Shown: positions 9,915 through 63,379 of the stretch, one piece after another | Layout: each line of letters begins with the position of its first letter | How positions within the stretch are numbered: position 1 is the first letter of the stretch | Origin: Peptococcaceae bacterium | GTDB taxonomy: Bacteria; Bacillota; Desulfotomaculia; Desulfotomaculales; JACDOK01 | NCBI GenBank assembly: GCA_017656185.1 | Contig: JACDOK010000011.1 | Coordinates: forward strand, 1 to 63,456 | Direction of reading: 5' to 3' | DNA length: 63,456 nt | Notes under the pieces: model-generated | The model's input: only the letters and a program-made list of their open reading frames with translations | Told to the model about the DNA's origin: nothing | Database searches by the model: none | Program-made: the position numbers and the translations under genes

Positions 9915-11174
9915 TCAGGCAGAACGAACCGCCTTTGAGGCCGCCTCACCACTTGCTTCATTAACTTTTAAGGTTACGATCTGGCGCCCCAAAACCAGGT
10001 ACAGCCACGCTAATACCAGGCCCAATGAACCCGTAACATAAAAGACACTCGGGCCGCCAAAGTGATCCATAAGCCATCCTCCTACCGCGGGACCCGTCAT
10101 CATTCCCAGGGCACGTAAGGATTCCAGTCCTACATATCTACCGCGTTTGTCCGGTGGCGCGATGGTAACAAGATACTTCATACTGCTGGGAGCGTGATAC
10201 ATCTCCCCTATCGTAAAGATCACGGTCATCGCCAGAAAAACTGCCATTGACTTGCTTACCGCGAACCCGAAAAGGCCCAGGCCGAACAGTGCCGCCCCAA
10301 AAGCCAGAGTCCGGCCTACCGGCGCGTCTTCTGTCCGGCGGGCGATACTCATTTGAAAAACCACTACCATAGAGGCATTGAGTGACAGCAATACCGCAAA
10401 AGTAGTTACCGACCCGGTTACGTCTTCCTTCAGGTAAAGAGGCAGGCTGGTATAGAACTGGGTAACTGCAAACGCCATCAAAACATAGAGCACGACAAAA
10501 AAGCCAACGGTCTTTTGGGCAAAGATGTTTTTATACTCCCTGATGTTTTCCATCAATTTACCATGTGCCTTCGACTTGTTATAATCTGACGGTAAGGTTT
10601 CCGGTAAGTACAGGGCTATGAACCCCGCGACCAGCAGCAACACCGTACCGGTAATCCCGAAAATCACGCTCGGAGACACCATAAATGCCACCGCCCCTAG
10701 TAAGGGTCCTACCGCAAATCCTACATTACCGGCAATACGCATCAAACCATAGGCTTGGGCACGTTTTTCACCCGGCGTAACATCAGCCACCATGGCATTG
10801 GCCGCCGGGCGGTAAAACGCCCCGCAAAATGATTGGCATGCTATCAGAACAGCAAATGACAAGACACTTTCGGCCCAAATCAAGCTCCAAAAGAACAGCC
10901 CCTCAAGGACCAGCGAACCTATCATTATCCGGCGGCGCCCCCACTGGTCAGTCATTGCTCCTGCCACTATACTGCCTACCGTTGCCGCAAGAGGAGAAAT
11001 ACCTACAATCAACCCTACAACCGCGCGGGTGGTATCCAGCCAGTCATACAGCAGGACCGTAAACAAGGGAAAAACCATTGCCGCCGCCGTACAGGTAGCT
11101 ATTTCGCCCCAAAACCGGATCCAAACAGCGCGGTCGAATTCCGAACCATATGACAATAATCGACCTAACAGCAT
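9915..11174 (-). CDS. MFS transporter (drug exporter-like)
   Basis: A 419-residue major facilitator superfamily protein with about 12 predicted membrane helices. Motif A between helices 2 and 3 is clear (GAMTDQWGRRR, near residues 72-82), and the half-repeat between helices 8 and 9 is present in degenerate form. The sequence FCGAFYRPAANAMVADVTPGEKRAQAYG is typical of the multidrug-exporter branch (YttB/MdtH-like). The ligand is unknown. It stands alone, with an A+T-rich 5' flank and no recognisable terminator downstream. Confidence 0.8.
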   Translation of the reverse strand: MLLGRLLSYGSEFDRAVWIRFWGEIATCTAAAMVFPLFTVLLYDWLDTTRAVVGLIVGISPLAATVGSIVAGAMTDQWGRRRIMIGSLVLEGLFFWSLIWAESVLSFAVLIACQSFCGAFYRPAANAMVADVTPGEKRAQAYGLMRIAGNVGFAVGPLLGAVAFMVSPSVIFGITGTVLLLVAGFIALYLPETLPSDYNKSKAHGKLMENIREYKNIFAQKTVGFFVVLYVLMAFAVTQFYTSLPLYLKEDVTGSVTTFAVLLSLNASMVVVFQMSIARRTEDAPVGRTLAFGAALFGLGLFGFAVSKSMAVFLAMTVIFTIGEMYHAPSSMKYLVTIAPPDKRGRYVGLESLRALGMMTGPAVGGWLMDHFGGPSVFYVTGSLGLVLAWLYLVLGRQIVTLKVNEASGEAASKAVRSA

Positions 11175-11194
11175 GCCTCTTCTCCTACTCCAGC

Positions 11195-11347
11195 CTAAAC
11201 TTTAAACAACGATACATCGTTTTTTACAGTTAAAAACAATCCAATTATAACTCCTGAAATGAACACTTGTAAATATAAGGCCAAAGAACCTGAGTACCCA
11301 ATGACTACGATGATCAGGGCCGCCGTTAACCATTTGTGCCGCTTCAT
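11195..11347 (-). pseudogene. Short ORF duplicating the N-terminus of the FG-GAP lipoprotein
   Basis: A 50-codon frame whose first 17 residues (MKRHKWLTAALIIVVIG) closely match the N-terminus of the FG-GAP lipoprotein starting at 7384 (MKRYKWLTAVLILSMIVIG). DNA similarity spans about 11285-11347 against 7322-7384. The rest of the protein does not resemble the parent and ends at a TAG. It could be a remnant left by partial duplication or a small membrane peptide. No good SD precedes it. The remainder of 11175-11509 contains only the terminator of the radical SAM gene. Confidence 0.5.
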
Positions 11348-16890: not shown

Positions 16891-16922
16891 AAAAACCCGC
16901 TAACCCTTCTGGTTAGCGGGTT
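16891..16922 (-). terminator. Rho-independent terminator of rnpB
   Basis: A perfect 12-bp stem (16894-16905 with 16911-16922) with a 5-nt loop and a T-tract on the minus strand. It begins directly after the 3' end of the RNase P RNA. Confidence 0.9.
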
Positions 16923-16923
16923 T

Positions 16924-17351
16924 GTGAGTAAACCTATAAGCCGAGTTCTGTCGTGGGTGATCATCTATCTGGGACGTTAGTTGCCTAACGCCTCTAGCGA
17001 CCTGACCCGGGGACGGAGCGGGCCACTCCATGGTCCCCCTATTCGGTCTTGCTCCGGGTGGGGTTTACCTAGCCGGCCGGTCGCCCGGCCGCTGGTGCGC
17101 TCTTACCGCACCGTTGCACCCTTACCCAGCACTCAACCCGGTAATTGAAAGATTATCTTTCACGTGAAAAACTATTCTTCAAACAAAAGGCAACCTTTCA
17201 TTCACTGGGTTGAGTGCTGGGCGGTCTACATTTCTGTGGCACTATCCTTGGGGTCGCCCCCACTGGGTGTTACCCAGCACCCTGCCCTATGGAGCTCGGA
17301 CTTTCCTCAGGCACTTGACATCAAGTGCCCGCGATCACCTGATTTACTCAC
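16924..17351 (-). ncRNA. rnpB: RNase P RNA, bacterial class A
   Basis: The catalytic RNA that removes 5' leaders from pre-tRNAs. On the minus strand the universally conserved core reads GAGGAAAGTCCGAGCTCC (J3/4-P4) followed by the ATAGGGCAGGGTGCTGGGTAA block. The 3' end carries the GACAGAACTCGGCTTAT (P4 3' strand) element. The two ends pair as P1 (GTGAGTAAA with TTTACTCAC). The architecture is the ancestral class A rather than the class B of Bacillus. The length is about 428 nt, with an A+T-rich extension in the P12 region. Promoter and terminator bracket it precisely. Confidence 0.95.
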
Positions 17352-55605: not shown

Positions 55606-56619
55606 CTATACCCTTCTCCCCACCGCTTCGGCAATACGCCCGACCTCATTCATCATAATTTCAAAATTACCCGGTGTTAAAGATTGAGCCCCGTCGCACA
55701 AGGCTTCCGAAGGATTGGGATGGACTTCAACCAGTAAACCATCGGCACCAGCCGCAACGGCCGCCCGCGACATCGGAATAACATATTTCCATTTTCCGAG
55801 ACCATGACTCGGGTCAACGATTACGGGCAGGTGGGAAACATTCTTAACAATCGGAACGGCGCTTAAATCCAATGTATTACGCGTATAGGTTTCAAAGCTG
55901 CGAATACCGCGTTCACACAAAATAACGTTCGGGTTACCGGAAGCAAGAATATACTCCGCAGCCATTAACCACTCTTCGATGGTAGCCGACATACCTCGTT
56001 TCAAGAGAACGGGACGATCAATACGACCCAATTCCTTTAACAATTGGAAGTTCTGCATATTCCTCGTCCCGATTTGGACAATGTCAGCGTACTCGGCCAC
56101 AATGGGGAGAGTGGCATTGTCCATAACTTCCGTAACGATAAACAAACCGTACTTTTCACGGGTTTCAGCCAAAAGTTTCAGGCCCTCTTCTCCCAGTCCC
56201 TGGAATGAATAGGGTGACGTCCGGGGTTTAAAGGCACCACCGCGCAAGATCCTGGCCCCGGCTTTTTTGACCACTTCGGCAGCGGCAAAAAGCTGTTCCC
56301 TGCTTTCCACGGCACACGGGCCGGCCATAACCTGCAACGTATCGCCGCCGATCTCCAGATCACCTATGCGGATTACCGTACCTTCTTCTTTCATCTCTCG
56401 GCTGGCCAGCTTATAAGGTTTGAGGATGGGAACAATGTCCTCCACCCCGGGCAGCGTTTCCAAATTCATACACCCAAGCCTGGTCTTATCCCCAATAGCC
56501 CCGATGATGGTTCGTTCCACACCCTTAGAGAGATGAATTTTAAAACCGTTTTCCTCCAGTTTCTCGATAACTCCTCTAATCTCGTCTTCGGTAGCCTTGT
56601 GACTCATCACAACTATCAC
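55606..56619 (-). CDS. aroF: 3-deoxy-7-phosphoheptulonate synthase (DAHP synthase, type Ibeta)
   Basis: A 337-residue enzyme for the first step of the shikimate pathway (PEP plus erythrose 4-phosphate). Residues 1-70 form the ferredoxin-like regulatory domain of the type Ibeta group. The barrel has VMAGPCAVESREQ, GGAFKPRTSPYSFQGLG, VQIGTRNMQNFQLLKELG, VILCERGIRSFETYTRNTLD and VDPSHGLGKW. It is the last gene after trpA (68 bp away), so flux into chorismate is likely co-regulated with tryptophan synthesis. Confidence 0.94.
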   Translation of the reverse strand: MIVVMSHKATEDEIRGVIEKLEENGFKIHLSKGVERTIIGAIGDKTRLGCMNLETLPGVEDIVPILKPYKLASREMKEEGTVIRIGDLEIGGDTLQVMAGPCAVESREQLFAAAEVVKKAGARILRGGAFKPRTSPYSFQGLGEEGLKLLAETREKYGLFIVTEVMDNATLPIVAEYADIVQIGTRNMQNFQLLKELGRIDRPVLLKRGMSATIEEWLMAAEYILASGNPNVILCERGIRSFETYTRNTLDLSAVPIVKNVSHLPVIVDPSHGLGKWKYVIPMSRAAVAAGADGLLVEVHPNPSEALCDGAQSLTPGNFEIMMNEVGRIAEAVGRRV

Positions 56620-56687: not shown

Positions 56688-57482
56688 TTACCCCTTTCCC
56701 AGGGCATTTTTCAATTCCTTTACAAATGTTATAAATTGCTTAATATTTTCCATGCCCTTTTCAGCCACAAATTTCACCAGAGCGCTGCCTACCACGACCC
56801 CGTCGGCAAGGTCCCTCAGTTGAGCCGCCTGCCGCGGCCCGGACACCCCGAACCCCAACGCCACCGGTAAATCTGTAGACCTGCGTACCATTGATGTCAG
56901 GTATTGAAGGTTCGCAGGCATTTCCGCCCTGGGACCGGTAATACCCTTGACAGTAACGCAGTAAATAAAACCCCGTGCCTCCCGGGCAATGGCTCCGATA
57001 CGATCCGGCGGAGAAGTCGGCGCTACCAGGGGAATAAGCGCGATCCCATTCGCGTCTGCCAGTTCCCGCAAAATACCTGATTCCTCCAGGGGCAAATCCG
57101 GTACGATAACTCCGTCCACACCGGCCCGGGCCGCATCACCGGTAAAAGCCCGGAGACCGTACTGCAACAGGGGATTAAAATAACTCATCAAGATGATCGG
57201 TATCTCCGTACGGGTGCGCAGCCGGTATACAATATCAAGAATGGCCCTGACGTTGGCCCCCGCCTTCAAAGCCCTTTGGGAAGCAGCTTGAATCACAGGG
57301 CCGTCGGCCATGGGGTCCGAGAACGGTACTCCCAATTCAATAAGATCCGCTCCCCCCTCTTCCATTGCCAGCACCAGATCCGGCGTATCTGCCAGAGTGG
57401 GATCGCCCGCCGTCAGGTAAGTGATCAAGGCCGTTTCACCCTGTGAACGAAGCGTGTCAAACCTTTCACTAATGCGATTCAT
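56688..57482 (-). CDS. trpA: Tryptophan synthase alpha chain
   Basis: A 264-residue subunit cleaving indole-3-glycerol phosphate to indole. The catalytic Glu and Asp lie in [20 protein letters not shown]; the phosphate-binding loop is in [11 protein letters not shown] and GVVVGSALV. The frame extends to 57521, but the ATG at 57482 has SD GAGGAGGGG and matches the family start. It overlaps trpB by 14 bp, so the subunits are translationally coupled. Confidence 0.95.
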
Positions 57483-58668
57483 CGTTCCCCTCCTCAAAAA
57501 GGCGGGCCACTGTCTCGACATCTTTATCCCCGCGTCCCGAAAGATTAACCAGGACGATCTGTTCGCCGGGCAAGGATGAGGCTATCCTTACCGCTTCCGC
57601 CACGGCGTGGGCACTCTCCAAGGCCGGAAGAATGCCCTCCGTACGCCCCAGCAACTCAAATGCTTCCAAGGCCTCCCGGTCGGTAACGGCAGTATAAGTC
57701 GCCCGGCCGCAGTCCTTGAGGTAACTGTGTTCTGGACCTACTCCCGGATAGTCGAGACCCGCCGATACCGAATGCACCGGAGCAACTTGACCGTCCGCGT
57801 CCTGCAGCAGGTAACTGAAGGAGCCGTGTAAAACCCCCGGGCGGCCCCGGTTCAGCGTCGCCGCGTGTTCTCGCGTCTCCAGCCCCTTGCCGGCCGCTTC
57901 CACGCCGACGAGCCGGACTTGGCGGTCTTTCAGAAAAGGATAGAAGATGCCCATAGCATTACTGCCCCCACCGACACAGGCTACCACATAATCGGGAAGA
58001 CGGCCCTCAATTTCCAGCAACTGCATTTTGGCCTCGCTGCCGATCACGGCCTGGAAGTCACGTACCATCGTGGGATAAGGATGGGGACCGGCTACAGAAC
58101 CGATCAGGTAATAGGTATCGTCGACGTTGGTCACCCAATCCCTTATCGCCTCGTTCATAGCGTCCTTCAAGGTCCGGGAACCGGCCCTGACCGGCACGAC
58201 TTCCGCCCCTAAGAGGCGCATGCGGACCACATTCAGGGCCTGGCGGCGCATATCCTCTTCCCCCATGTAGATGACACATGCCAAGCCGAAAAGCGCGGCG
58301 GCAGTAGCCGTGGCCACACCGTGCTGCCCGGCGCCCGTCTCGGCAATGATACGCTTTTTACCCATTCTTTTGGCCAGGAGCCCCTGGCCGATAGTGTTGT
58401 TGATCTTATGGGCCCCGGTATGGTTAAGATCCTCCCGCTTGAGATAGATCCGGGCGCCCCCGCAGTGCTGTGTCAGCCCGGCGGCAAAATAGAGCGGGCT
58501 CGGTCGTCCGACATAGTCTTTTAAAAGGAGATGCAATTCCTTCTGGAAATTGTCATCATTTTTTACCTGGTCGTAGGCGGCGGTAAGTTCTTCAAGTGCC
58601 GGCATCAACGTTTCCGGTACAAATCGCCCGCCGTAAGACCCGAAGTAACCTCTCTCGTCCGGCAGCAT
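57469..58668 (-). CDS. trpB: Tryptophan synthase beta chain
   Basis: A 399-residue PLP enzyme condensing indole and serine. Lys88 in NHTGAHKIN binds [13 protein letters not shown] binds its phosphate, and EDLNHTGAH includes the catalytic region. The substrate-channelling Glu block [13 protein letters not shown] is present. The ATG at 58668 has SD AAGGAGG 7 nt upstream. The upstream trpF runs 77 bp into this gene. Confidence 0.96.
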
Positions 58669-59278
58669 CGCCGACCCTCCTTACAGTTTGGATAAAGGCC
58701 CGTATCTTAGCCGTGTCCTTTTTACCATCCGTTTCTACGCCACTGGAAACATCAACACCCGCGGGGCGGACGCTCCTTATAGCCGCAAGGACATTATCAA
58801 CCGCCAGTCCCCCGGCCAGGATCACAGGAGCCGGCGGAACCCAGTCCCGTACGGTTTGCCAGTGAAAAGTACGTCCCGTACCCCCCGCCTTTCCGGCCAC
58901 ATAGGCATCGAGTAGTACAGCCGCCACCCGGTAACGGTTGGCTTCAGAAAGAGTTTCGCGCCCCTTGACGCGGAAAGCTTTGATTACCGGGACATTTAAT
59001 GCGGCACAGTATTCCGGTGATTCGGTACCGTGGAGCTGAACGGCATCAAGGCGGCAAAAATCAGCTATTTCCTGTACTTCTGCCACAGGAGCGTCTACAA
59101 ACACGCCAATCTTAAGAACCCCTGCCGGTAGGGATGAAATAATCGAACGTGCCGCCTCGGGACTGATGCGCCTGCTGCTGGGAGCGAAAACAAACCCCAG
59201 GGCATCCGCTCCCAGATCGCCAGCCAGTTGAGCCGTCCGCCTGTCGGTAATACCGCAAATTTTAACGAATACCACCAT
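58592..59278 (-). CDS. trpF: Phosphoribosylanthranilate isomerase, 3' end overlapping trpB
   Basis: A 228-residue TIM-barrel isomerase. The opening [27 protein letters not shown] contains the catalytic Cys, while [12 protein letters not shown] and [14 protein letters not shown] and [10 protein letters not shown] (catalytic Asp and phosphate site) follow. The ATG at 59278 overlaps trpC. The conserved fold ends near [10 protein letters not shown], but translation continues about 24 residues into trpB, making the protein longer than usual. Confidence 0.92.
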
Positions 59279-60059
59279 CGACACCCCTGCTAAGCAACTT
59301 CGCCAGGCATTCACCGGGCTGAGCACCGCGCATCAGGGCCTCACCAACCAGCACCGCGTCAACGCCAAAGGTGTGCAGTATTTCAAGATCTTCAGCAGAT
59401 TTGATACCGCTCTCGCTCACCAGGGTTACGTTGTCCGGCACATACCGGGCCAGGCGTTCGGTTACGGTAAGATCCGTTTTCAGGGTGCGTAAATCGCGGT
59501 TATTGATACCAACCAGTGCGGCACCGCAGGACAGCGCCTGCTGCAGTTCATCCTCGTGGTGCACCTCAACCAGGCAGTCCATCCCCAGCTCTTGTGCCAA
59601 ACCAAAGTACTCCTCAAGTTCTGACAGTGCCAGCGCCGCCACGATCAGGAGAATGGCGTCGGCCCCTAAGACCCTGGCCTCGTAAACTTGGTAGGAGGAA
59701 ACAATAAAATCTTTACGCAGTACCGGCAGCTTTACGGCCTGGTGTACCGCCTGCAAGTATGCCGGGTCACCTTTAAAGAATGTCTGGTCCGTCAACACGG
59801 AAATGGCGGCGGCACCGTTGGCCTCATACTGCCGCGCTACCTCTTCCGCCGGGAGGTCATCCCGGATAACGCCCGCCGAGGGCGAGGCAAACTTCACCTC
59901 CGCAATTACGGCTATTTCATCCGTTCTTACCAAAGCTCCGGCAAATTCCCGGCATGGGTTCTCTTTGGCGAGGGCGGCCTCCTTAAGGCGCCGCGCCGCT
60001 TGTGAACCCTTTAGCTGCTTCATTTCAAACCTTTTTTGAGCCACTATACGATCTAGCAT
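59262..60059 (-). CDS. trpC: Indole-3-glycerol phosphate synthase
   Basis: A 265-residue TIM barrel that closes the indole ring. Key catalytic residues lie in VIAEVKFASPSAGVI (Lys, near residue 54), VLRKDFIVSSYQVYEARVLGADAILLI, and LVGINNRDLRTLKTD; ESGIKSAEDLEIL and VLVGEALMRG complete the phosphate site. It overlaps trpD by 7 bp and trpF by 17 bp. Confidence 0.95.
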   Translation of the reverse strand: MLDRIVAQKRFEMKQLKGSQAARRLKEAALAKENPCREFAGALVRTDEIAVIAEVKFASPSAGVIRDDLPAEEVARQYEANGAAAISVLTDQTFFKGDPAYLQAVHQAVKLPVLRKDFIVSSYQVYEARVLGADAILLIVAALALSELEEYFGLAQELGMDCLVEVHHEDELQQALSCGAALVGINNRDLRTLKTDLTVTERLARYVPDNVTLVSESGIKSAEDLEILHTFGVDAVLVGEALMRGAQPGECLAKLLSRGVDGGIR

Positions 60060-61072
60060 AATAAACTCCTGGTAAAAGCAATAAACTCATCAAGCTTGGC
60101 GGCTGCTTTCCCGCTGTCAATAGCTTCGGAAGCCTGTTCGACAGCCTGAGGTATATCCTCACTGAACCCTGCCGCCACCAGTGCCAGGGCGGCATTAAGT
60201 ACCACCGCGTCACGGCGGGGTCCTTGCTCACCCGCCAGAACCCGGCGGGTAATACCGGCATTTTCTTCCGGACTGCCGCCAGCCAGCGCCCCGGTATCCG
60301 CACATGCAAATCCCAGGTCTTGAGGATCAATCACACCGGATATTACTTCTTGGTTATGAACCTCCCAGTAACGCGAAGGACCGGCCAGGGAAACCTCATC
60401 CAACCCGCCGGCGCCGTGCACCACAAAGGCCCTTTTTACACCAAGTCCCGCCAATACCCCGGCCATCAACTCCGCTACCCGGGCATCATAAACCCCCAGG
60501 ACCTGAGCCTGCGGTAAGGCGGGGTTGGTTAGCGGCCCCAGGATGTTAAATACGGTACGGATTCCGATTTCTTTTCTTGGCCCGGCGGCATGCTTCATGG
60601 CCCCATGCAGCCGCGGGGCGAACAAAAAGGAGATGCCCACCCGGTCCAGACACACGCCCATTTGTTCCGGTGATAGTTCCAAGTTGGCACCCAGGGCGCG
60701 CAGAACATCGGCACTGCCGCAGCGGCTGGAGACCGAGGAGTTGCCGTGTTTGGCTACTGGCACACCGAGGGCGGCCACGACAAACGCGGCGGTGGTAGAA
60801 ATATTAAAGGTATGAGCCCCGTCACCCCCGGTACCGCAGGTATCTACGATCATACGATGTTTGGTACGTACCGGGGTGGCCTTATCACGCATGACCCGGG
60901 CAAACCCGGTTACCTCATCAACGGTTTCCCCTTTGAAGCGCAGCCCGACCAGCAAAGCCCCCACCTGGGCCGGCGTAGCCCTGCCGGACATAATGTTATC
61001 CATTACCGCTTCCGCTTCCCCTAATACCAGGTGTTCCCCGTTCACAACCTTGGAGATGGCATCCCTAATCAT
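60053..61072 (-). CDS. trpD: Anthranilate phosphoribosyltransferase
   Basis: A 339-residue enzyme that adds phosphoribose from PRPP to anthranilate. The PRPP motif is VDTCGTGGDGAHTFNIST, with KHGNSSVSSRCGSADVL and NILGPLTNP further on and VVHGAGGLDEVS near the active site. The frame starts at a TTG, but the ATG at 61072 has AGGGGG 7 nt upstream. It is a stand-alone TrpD, not fused to TrpG. Confidence 0.95.
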   Translation of the reverse strand: MIRDAISKVVNGEHLVLGEAEAVMDNIMSGRATPAQVGALLVGLRFKGETVDEVTGFARVMRDKATPVRTKHRMIVDTCGTGGDGAHTFNISTTAAFVVAALGVPVAKHGNSSVSSRCGSADVLRALGANLELSPEQMGVCLDRVGISFLFAPRLHGAMKHAAGPRKEIGIRTVFNILGPLTNPALPQAQVLGVYDARVAELMAGVLAGLGVKRAFVVHGAGGLDEVSLAGPSRYWEVHNQEVISGVIDPQDLGFACADTGALAGGSPEENAGITRRVLAGEQGPRRDAVVLNAALALVAAGFSEDIPQAVEQASEAIDSGKAAAKLDEFIAFTRSLLC

Positions 61073-61083
61073 CGTCAAACCCC

Positions 61084-61647
61084 CTATTGGTTCAGGAAAT
61101 TTCGTAAAATGGTCTTCCCGTGCTGTGTCAGTATCGATTCGGGGTGGAACTGCACCCCTTGAACCGGGTGCTGCCGGTGCCTTACAGCCATGATCTCCCC
61201 TGTTTCGGCCCTCGCAGCAACCTCAAGACAATCCGGCAAATTTTCTTCGGCCAGAATAAGAGAATGATAACGTGTTGCCGTAAAGGGTGACGGTACATTC
61301 TTAAAAATATGGCTCCCGTCGTGTCTTATTTGAGAAGTTTTGCCGTGCATCAGCACCGGTGCCCGTACCACCTTTCCGCCATAGGCCTGACCGATTACTT
61401 GATGACCCAGGCATACCCCGAGAACGGGTATGTAACTTCCATAACGGCTGACAAGATCCAGGCAGATGCCCGCCTGGTCCGGGGTACCGGGCCCCGGGGA
61501 AATTACAATGTGAGAAGGTTTCATCTCAGCAATTTCAGCTAAGCCGACCTGGTCGTTACGATACACTTTTACCTCTGCCCCGAGTTCTGCCAAGTAGTGC
61601 ACCAGGTTATAGGAAAATGAATCGTAATTATCAATTAATAAAATCAC
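61084..61647 (-). CDS. trpG: Anthranilate synthase glutaminase subunit (amphibolic with PabA)
   Basis: A 187-residue class I glutamine amidotransferase supplying ammonia to TrpE. The nucleophile is Cys79 in GVCLGHQ; the oxyanion segment is SPGPGTPDQAG and the His-Glu pair is in VQFHPES. It begins with GTG overlapping the trpE TGA by 3 bp. If no separate pabA exists it probably also serves folate synthesis, as in B. subtilis. Confidence 0.95.
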   Translation of the reverse strand: MILLIDNYDSFSYNLVHYLAELGAEVKVYRNDQVGLAEIAEMKPSHIVISPGPGTPDQAGICLDLVSRYGSYIPVLGVCLGHQVIGQAYGGKVVRAPVLMHGKTSQIRHDGSHIFKNVPSPFTATRYHSLILAEENLPDCLEVAARAETGEIMAVRHRQHPVQGVQFHPESILTQHGKTILRNFLNQ

Positions 61648-63107
61648 TGATCATAACCCCCTAAGGCCTGCAATAACGCCTCGGCCTTATGAGCTGTCTC
61701 GTGATATTCTTTAAGAGGAACTGAGTCAGCAACAATCCCAGCTCCCGCCTGGATATAAGCCGTCTTTTGACTTATAATCACCGTGCGAATGGCAATACAG
61801 GTGTCCAGATTGCCACTTAGACCGAAGTAGCCTACGGCACCGGCATAGATACCGCGCCGCGACGGTTCCAATTCCTCGATAATCTCCATAGCCCGTACCT
61901 TCGGCGCCCCCGATACCGTACCGGCCGGGAATACCGCCATAAGTGCATCAAGGGCATCACAGCGGGGAGCCAGTTTACCGCATACCTCCGAAGTCAAGTG
62001 CATGACATGCGAATAATACTCCACTTCCATCATTTTAGAGACCTTGACGGTACCCGGCAGGCACACTCTTGACAGGTCATTGCGGCCCAGGTCGACAAGC
62101 ATAACGTGCTCGGCCCTTTCTTTGGGATCGGCCAATAATTCCGCAGCCAGCTGACCGTCCTCAGCGGCGTTTCGGCCGCGCGGCCTGGTACCGGCAATGG
62201 GCCTGGTTGTAACCACCCCGTCGTCAACACGCACCAGCATCTCCGGAGACGCCCCGGCAACCACCGGATCACCAAAGTCCAGGTAAAAAAGATGAGGTGA
62301 TGGGTTGATGCTGCGCAGCCGCCTGTACAAGTTAATGGGACTGCCTTTGAAAGGCACTTGAAAACGCCGGGAAAGTACCACCTGAATGGCATCCCCTGCG
62401 GCAATATAATTTTTGGCGTGCCCTACATTGGTGCAAAAGTCTTCAGTTGATTGGTTAGATAAGGGCTTCAAACTTCCGTTATCCAGGTCGAACAACCCTT
62501 GGTTATACGAACGGGTTTCATTGATAGTCGCCAGCACTTCCTCAATTTTTTGGCAGGCTTTTTCGTATGCATCTTCAGGATCGTTTCCGGGCTGGCTCAG
62601 GTAGATGACCTTTACGGTGTGCTGCACGTGGTCAAAAACAAGTACTACCTTGCTGAACGCCAGCATAGCGTCAGGCAGCTGCAGGTCATCACGGGCCCCG
62701 GTGGGAAGATACTCCAGATACCGTACCGCATCATATCCCCAAAAACCAACAGCGCCTCCCCAAAAACGAGGCTCACCGGACCGGGGCGGGCAATGATATT
62801 TACGCATAAGATCCCTCAGCACCCGAAACGGATTGCCTTGTACCGGTATAACCCGATCACCGCAATCTATTAATCCTTCACCGTCTTTGAAACGTAAAGT
62901 CCAAAGAGGATCAAAACCGAGGAAGGAATAACGCCCCAGCCTCTCTCCCCCTTCTACGCTTTCCAAAAGGTAGGCCGGCGCCGCGGGGTTCAATTTCATA
63001 TACACGGAAATGGGCGTTTCGGTATCCACCACCTGTTCACAGGACACCGGAATCAGGGTATAAGAACGCGACAGGTTAAGATAATTCTCCCGTGCTGGCA
63101 GAATCAA
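61644..63107 (-). CDS. trpE: Anthranilate synthase component I
   Basis: A 487-residue chorismate-utilising enzyme making anthranilate. The tryptophan feedback site LLESVEGGERLGRYSFLG is near residues 45-62, and the active-site blocks are PIAGTRPRGRN, KERAEHVMLVDLGRNDLSRV, FPAGTVSGAPKVRAMEII and IQAGAGIVADS. The GTG at 63113 abuts the SD GGGAGGT with no spacing, so the TTG at 63107 (7 nt away) is the likely start. A TRAP-type attenuator precedes it. Confidence 0.95.
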   Translation of the reverse strand: MILPARENYLNLSRSYTLIPVSCEQVVDTETPISVYMKLNPAAPAYLLESVEGGERLGRYSFLGFDPLWTLRFKDGEGLIDCGDRVIPVQGNPFRVLRDLMRKYHCPPRSGEPRFWGGAVGFWGYDAVRYLEYLPTGARDDLQLPDAMLAFSKVVLVFDHVQHTVKVIYLSQPGNDPEDAYEKACQKIEEVLATINETRSYNQGLFDLDNGSLKPLSNQSTEDFCTNVGHAKNYIAAGDAIQVVLSRRFQVPFKGSPINLYRRLRSINPSPHLFYLDFGDPVVAGASPEMLVRVDDGVVTTRPIAGTRPRGRNAAEDGQLAAELLADPKERAEHVMLVDLGRNDLSRVCLPGTVKVSKMMEVEYYSHVMHLTSEVCGKLAPRCDALDALMAVFPAGTVSGAPKVRAMEIIEELEPSRRGIYAGAVGYFGLSGNLDTCIAIRTVIISQKTAYIQAGAGIVADSVPLKEYHETAHKAEALLQALGGYDQ

Positions 63108-63230
63108 ACCCACACCTCCCTTTGACAGCTCGCAAAACTACACCCGTAGCCCCTGTATCTCGGTATTTAGGCAGGCTTTTCTTGTTTGGATAATGTTCTT
63201 GCAGAGGTAAGCTTGCGGTGAGAGGCGAGG

Positions 63231-63260
63231 AAATAAAAAACAGCACCCAGAATGAGTGCC
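63231..63260 (-). terminator. trp leader attenuator terminator, with overlapping antiterminator
   Basis: On the minus strand the stem GCACTC-ATTCT-GGGTGC (63243-63259) is followed by TGTTTTTTATTT (to 63231). The alternative helix pairs RC(63276-63282) plus RC(63272-63273) with RC(63252-63260), GGCACTCAT, using the 5' half of the terminator stem. The region down to trpE (63114-63230) contains no gene that I support. Confidence 0.85.
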
Positions 63261-63273
63261 GCATGTAGACTGG

Positions 63274-63333
63274 CTCACTCATCCTCAGCTCAACTCACCT
63301 TAACTTTTCTAAACTTTCTTCTCTTCTCAGCTC
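63274..63333 (-). promoter_or_regulatory. TRAP-binding site: twelve NAG triplets
   Basis: On the minus strand, triplets GAG, GAG, GAG, AAG, TAG, AAG, AAG, GAG, GAG, GAG, GAG, GAG begin at 63333, 63328, 63323, 63316, 63311, 63306, 63301, 63296, 63291, 63286, 63280 and 63276. Most intervals are 5 nt. The last two triplets lie inside the antiterminator strand. This is the layout bound by the tryptophan-activated 11-mer TRAP (MtrB). Confidence 0.85.
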
Positions 63334-63350
63334 ATATAAAATTAAATTTA

Positions 63351-63379
63351 TACTTATCACTATTGATGCCATATGTCAA
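63351..63379 (-). promoter_or_regulatory. Sigma-A promoter of the trp operon
   Basis: TTGACA (63374-63379) and TAAGTA (63351-63356) are separated by 17 bp. Transcription should start near 63344, so the TRAP site begins about 11 nt into the RNA. Nothing else is recognisable to the window end. Confidence 0.85.

Follow-up and report, generated by a model that had tools for sequence, protein, structure and literature searches.

The trp leader of Bacillus subtilis contains an antiterminator that overlaps the repeats and the attenuator, and at least 7 repeats are enough for stable TRAP binding (PMC4027176). The trp leader of Bacillus halodurans carries 19 triplets and is bound by a 12-mer TRAP (PMC3184956). 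The TRAP literature that we found concerns Bacillus and its close relatives, and here the predicted switch heads the trp operon across an order of Clostridia-type anaerobes.

The window, i.e. the whole stretch of 63,456 nt that was analysed, carries a trpEGDCFBA-aroF operon at its right end, the leader of which is read on the minus strand. In 5′ to 3′ order this leader shows a −35 element TTGACA, twelve NAG triplets and an intrinsic terminator with its U run, all upstream of trpE. Sequence and modelling together indicate that it is a TRAP-controlled transcription attenuator, for which we estimate a probability of about 0.88. The features of the leader and the operon are as follows.

63374..63379, minus strand: putative −35 element TTGACA of the trp promoter (from the sequence; absent from the promoter-scan output)
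63274..63333, minus strand: twelve NAG triplets forming the predicted binding site for TRAP (sequence, array score, relatives)
63276..63284, minus strand: antiterminator 5′ strand GGAUGAGUG, overlapping the last NAG triplets (folding)
63250..63258, minus strand: antiterminator 3′ strand CACUCAUUC, common to the terminator 5′ arm (folding)
63240..63262, minus strand: intrinsic terminator hairpin, the attenuator (folding, terminator scan, relatives)
63235..63240, minus strand: U run of the terminator, U6 (sequence, terminator scan)
61644..63113, minus strand: trpE, anthranilate synthase component I (TIGR00564 above cut-off)
61084..61647, minus strand: trpG/pabA-type glutamine amidotransferase (TIGR00566 above cut-off)
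60053..61078, minus strand: trpD (TIGR01245 above cut-off)
59262..60059, minus strand: trpC (ORF list; named from operon order and sequence, without family scan)
58592..59326, minus strand: trpF (ORF list; named in the same way)
57469..58668, minus strand: trpB (ORF list; named in the same way)
56688..57521, minus strand: trpA (ORF list; named in the same way)
55606..56619, minus strand: aroF-type DAHP synthase at the operon end (TIGR01361 above cut-off)

With the trpEDCFBA leader of B. subtilis this locus shares an untranslated leader with NAG repeats spaced by about 5 nt, an antiterminator over the last repeats, an intrinsic terminator that uses one of the antiterminator strands, and the presence of mtrB in the genome. 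It differs by its 12 candidate triplets with three AAG and irregular gaps, by an operon that includes trpG and has a DAHP synthase at the end, by the position of mtrB between dnaE and accD, and by the lack of a detectable dedicated anti-TRAP gene in the genome. The leader of B. halodurans likewise has more than 11 triplets, but 19 compared to the 12 candidates found here.

The triplets start at positions 63333, 63328, 63323, 63316, 63311, 63306, 63301, 63296, 63291, 63286, 63280 and 63276 of the minus strand and read GAG GAG GAG AAG UAG AAG AAG GAG GAG GAG GAG GAG, which corresponds to eight GAG, one UAG and three AAG (G/UAG in 9 of 12). Start-to-start spacings are 5, 5, 7, 5, 5, 5, 5, 5, 5, 6 and 4 nt, 9 of 11 being 5 or 6 nt. 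The chain score of the array was 8.0, compared to a maximum of 4.4 among 1,000 dinucleotide shuffles, and both the coordinates and the array of twelve triplets at mostly 5 nt, as put forward in the original prediction, were confirmed. That prediction had also called the AAG and UAG triplets and one gap unusual. This applies to the three AAG triplets, whereas UAG is a standard TRAP triplet, and the last spacer of 1 nt is odd as well. The three AAG triplets and the two odd spacers (one of 4 nt, one of 1 nt) may reduce affinity. When the whole genome was searched for seven AG in exact 5-nt steps, the trp leader was the sole accepted array; a match at G000:C60:4659 was rejected because of its position ahead of a recombinase-like gene and its triplets, most of which are AAG or CAG. 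The promoter, described earlier as a good one, has a perfect −35 element, but the −10 element at a distance of 16–18 nt is poor or undefined and a promoter scan of the region did not report the trp promoter.

GGAUGAGUG and CACUCAUUC form 9 pairs, and most of the last two triplets is held inside this antiterminator, in agreement with the strand-sharing hairpins proposed at the outset. The terminator scan found one terminator-like site in the region (63262-63240), with 0.2 expected. In folding of the growing transcript the antiterminator reached a probability of 0.93–0.94 before the 3′ arm of the terminator was complete. Folding the complete leader with and without masked repeats, a check suggested with the original prediction, gave a modelled terminator probability of 0.15 for the free RNA and of 0.999 with the array masked, which mimics TRAP. 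Antiterminator and terminator are mutually exclusive in silico and lie upstream of trpE.

According to the proposed mechanism, Trp-bound MtrB, which is encoded elsewhere in the genome, would wrap the 12-triplet array as the RNA emerges when tryptophan is plentiful. This would remove the last triplets from the antiterminator, the terminator (63262-63235) would form, and transcription of trpEGDCFBA-aroF would stop. If tryptophan is scarce TRAP would not bind, the antiterminator would form first and the operon would be transcribed. From these data we infer MtrB binding and its dependence on tryptophan, as well as the ring size and the termination inside the cell.

The mtrB gene, the absence of which would have counted against TRAP, was found at G000:C8:24498-24695 inside an 86-aa ORF between dnaE-like and accD-like genes (134 bits; PF02081, E 3.1e-39; NF009724 above cut-off, with the curated thresholds of both Pfam and NCBIfam passed). 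PDB TRAP chains align over the same MtrB region. In an alignment with the B. subtilis sequence the protein keeps K37, K56 and R58. These are RNA-contact residues of B. subtilis TRAP (PMC7430163). MtrB of this genome reads FTENTAA compared to FTEHTSA in relatives and differs at two positions that are near-invariant there. A title cited in PMC7430163 states that B. subtilis TRAP needs Glu60 to terminate efficiently; a Lys at position 60 was considered as a defect and dropped, as an aligned PDB TRAP chain likewise has Lys. A dedicated anti-TRAP gene (rtpA, PF15777) was not found in the genome, the sole match being a DnaJ zinc-finger stretch below cut-off. Only one relative showed an anti-TRAP match above cut-off (G042:C1:1839768-1839935, L275; 54 bits, 74-aa frame).

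Within the same order mtrB is present in 58 of 60 genomes, and 52 of 56 regions upstream of TrpE-like hits in relatives contain an array scoring above every shuffle. The four regions without an array are those of the divergent hits L081, L082 and L087 (39–43% identity), which may be PabB-like rather than TrpE, and of L083, where the match starts at residue 219 and the scanned stretch probably falls short of the leader. L075 has a short array, and the contig end truncates the stretch that carries it. After removal of L075, L081, L082, L083 and L087 and addition of the window leader (n = 52), a terminator was present behind the array in 51 of 52 leaders. A second method located 50 terminators, 44 of which have CUC, complementary to the GAG repeat, in the 5′ arm or loop. 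Nascent RNA folding let the terminator 5′ arm pair upstream in 49 of 50 leaders, and in 40 of 50 with at least 4 pairs to the array itself. The triplets and the mostly 5-nt spacing are kept upstream of trpE while the letters between the triplets vary; thus the relatives retain the NAG spacing along with the hairpins and not the hairpins alone. At equilibrium the terminator is favoured in most relatives even without masking; therefore the switch would be kinetic there. A clear thermodynamic switch is seen in few leaders, that of the window being one of them. The array, the hairpins, the relatives and mtrB together point to the TRAP mechanism of B. subtilis, as originally suggested.

The original prediction had considered TRAP unusual in this lineage, which does not hold: TRAP is ordinary here, and mtrB was detected in 152 of 299 genomes of a phylum sample, one of which (G079) has two mtrB matches. 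Record titles of the mtrB relatives include Ammonifex, Desulforudis, Carboxydothermus, Desulfotruncus, Pelotomaculum, Ruminiclostridium, Halanaerobacter and Desulfoscipio. As half of the phylum sample carries mtrB, TRAP may be more ancient, or may move between genomes more readily, than its record in Bacillus implies, and the approximately 50 natural leaders provide a comparative set for the triplets and spacings that TRAP tolerates. No paper on TRAP in Clostridia was found in the open-access literature, a coverage without most subscription papers and comparative reviews on trp control, and it is likely that TRAP has been described in such genomes before.

Other explanations for the leader have to be weighed against TRAP-controlled attenuation. 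The array could be a purine-rich sequence without TRAP binding, with control exerted by a T-box or a Trp-rich leader peptide, and T-boxes do occur in this genome. However, neither a T-box (RF00230) nor another Rfam leader matched in the trp region, and the six T-boxes found in the genome all lie outside contig C11, the genes read behind them not resembling trp genes. No frame in the ORF list, which was inspected unsystematically, resembles a Trp-rich leader peptide. Since the array is also kept upstream of trpE while the inter-triplet letters change, and mtrB is in the genome, we regard this explanation as very improbable. Hardly any more credit is due to the idea that TRAP binds but mainly hides the trpE ribosome site, thus acting on translation and not on termination. 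The trp operon of B. subtilis has such a second, translational level of TRAP control, and in the read-through fold with masked array the SD region of trpE is fully paired. As the SD is mostly paired in the free fold, too, no switch is seen at the ribosome site, which we dropped as a candidate, and both here and in relatives a strong terminator comes immediately after the array.

A slightly greater, but still small, likelihood is assigned to termination brought about by TRAP mainly via RNA polymerase and not by blocking the antiterminator. In B. subtilis, TRAP is reported to induce termination also without the attenuator RNA (PMC3913778), and the equilibrium fold of many relatives favours the terminator in the absence of TRAP. 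Nevertheless, the window leader has its clear thermodynamic switch, and the upstream pairing in the nascent RNA of nearly all leaders backs the antiterminator. Attenuation through the antiterminator thus remains the preferred reading.

In 41 of 52 relatives the trpE strand also carries a DAHP synthase gene farther downstream. According to the original prediction TRAP would set entry into the shikimate pathway via aroF. A second DAHP synthase of the genome is located after a T-box (G000:C42:138-404, L283), and therefore one of the two entry enzymes would be under TRAP control and not the whole shikimate entry. This T-box also precedes an apparent prephenate dehydratase gene.

Further targets in this genome were sought by patterns, which degenerate arrays can escape. 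The ribosome site of trpB2 is covered by a second clear array, AAG AUUAG UUGAG AGGAG AAGAG (G000:C3:169-191). Its leader (G000:C3:169-206, L022) has five NAG triplets at 5-nt spacing that are kept in relatives and is a predicted translational TRAP target. A score of at least 3 was obtained for 23 of 30 trpB2 start regions compared to 5 of 320 other gene starts (Fisher p 3e-25, a value that overstates independence as the genomes are related), and three of those five are iorA loci. The trpB2 arrays of the order mostly have 3–7 triplets, lie over the ribosome site and often extend into the start codon. Translational targets of TRAP in B. subtilis are trpG, trpP and ycbK. The trpB2 arrays resemble them in covering the ribosome site and differ in the target gene and in being shorter.

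Relatives were searched with an exact six-triplet pattern for arrays at other genes. Such arrays precede trpP (L098, L104), a trpX-like ABC binding protein gene (L092, L114; the 292 bits of L114 are below the TrpX cut-off of 390) and iorA, encoding indolepyruvate:ferredoxin oxidoreductase (L100, L105, L108), and occur at a separate trpB (L115) and at trpD within the operon (L099). In one genus an array with a terminator-like hairpin precedes a gene for a DctP-type solute-binding protein (L109, L110, L111), an arrangement that suggests a transporter for tryptophan or an indole compound. Family-library scans cover L104, L105, L109 and L114, while the other target genes were named by sequence likeness. 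Terminator-like sequences follow several of the non-trpE arrays (by eye, unscored). For iorA, a manual count gave an array within 450 nt before the gene in 8 of 25 closer homologues; the remaining homologues may be controlled from farther upstream. The closest iorA of this genome (L165) has no array. L148 has an array before iorA and a further one where the following gene, probably iorB, begins.

From these arrays a wide TRAP regulon with two modes appears probable in the order, comprising a translation block at trpB2 and attenuation of trpP, the trpX-like ABC, dctP-like and iorA genes. In the open literature searched we found no description of trpB2, trpP, trpX-like, iorA or dctP-like genes as TRAP targets. 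If it exists, such a regulon would link tryptophan synthesis, uptake and indolepyruvate metabolism, and for transporters without known specificity a TRAP site would point to tryptophan or an indole compound as the substrate. The predicted extra targets suggest functions for transporters and trpB2.

Elsewhere in the window, 4–5 NAG triplets were observed at 11172-11202 (minus strand), close to where an MFS transporter gene (9915-11174) begins; their score of 3.3 is the highest among the window control genes and possibly due to chance. The window further contains a bacterial class A RNase P RNA at 16921-17350 on the minus strand (333.5 bits).
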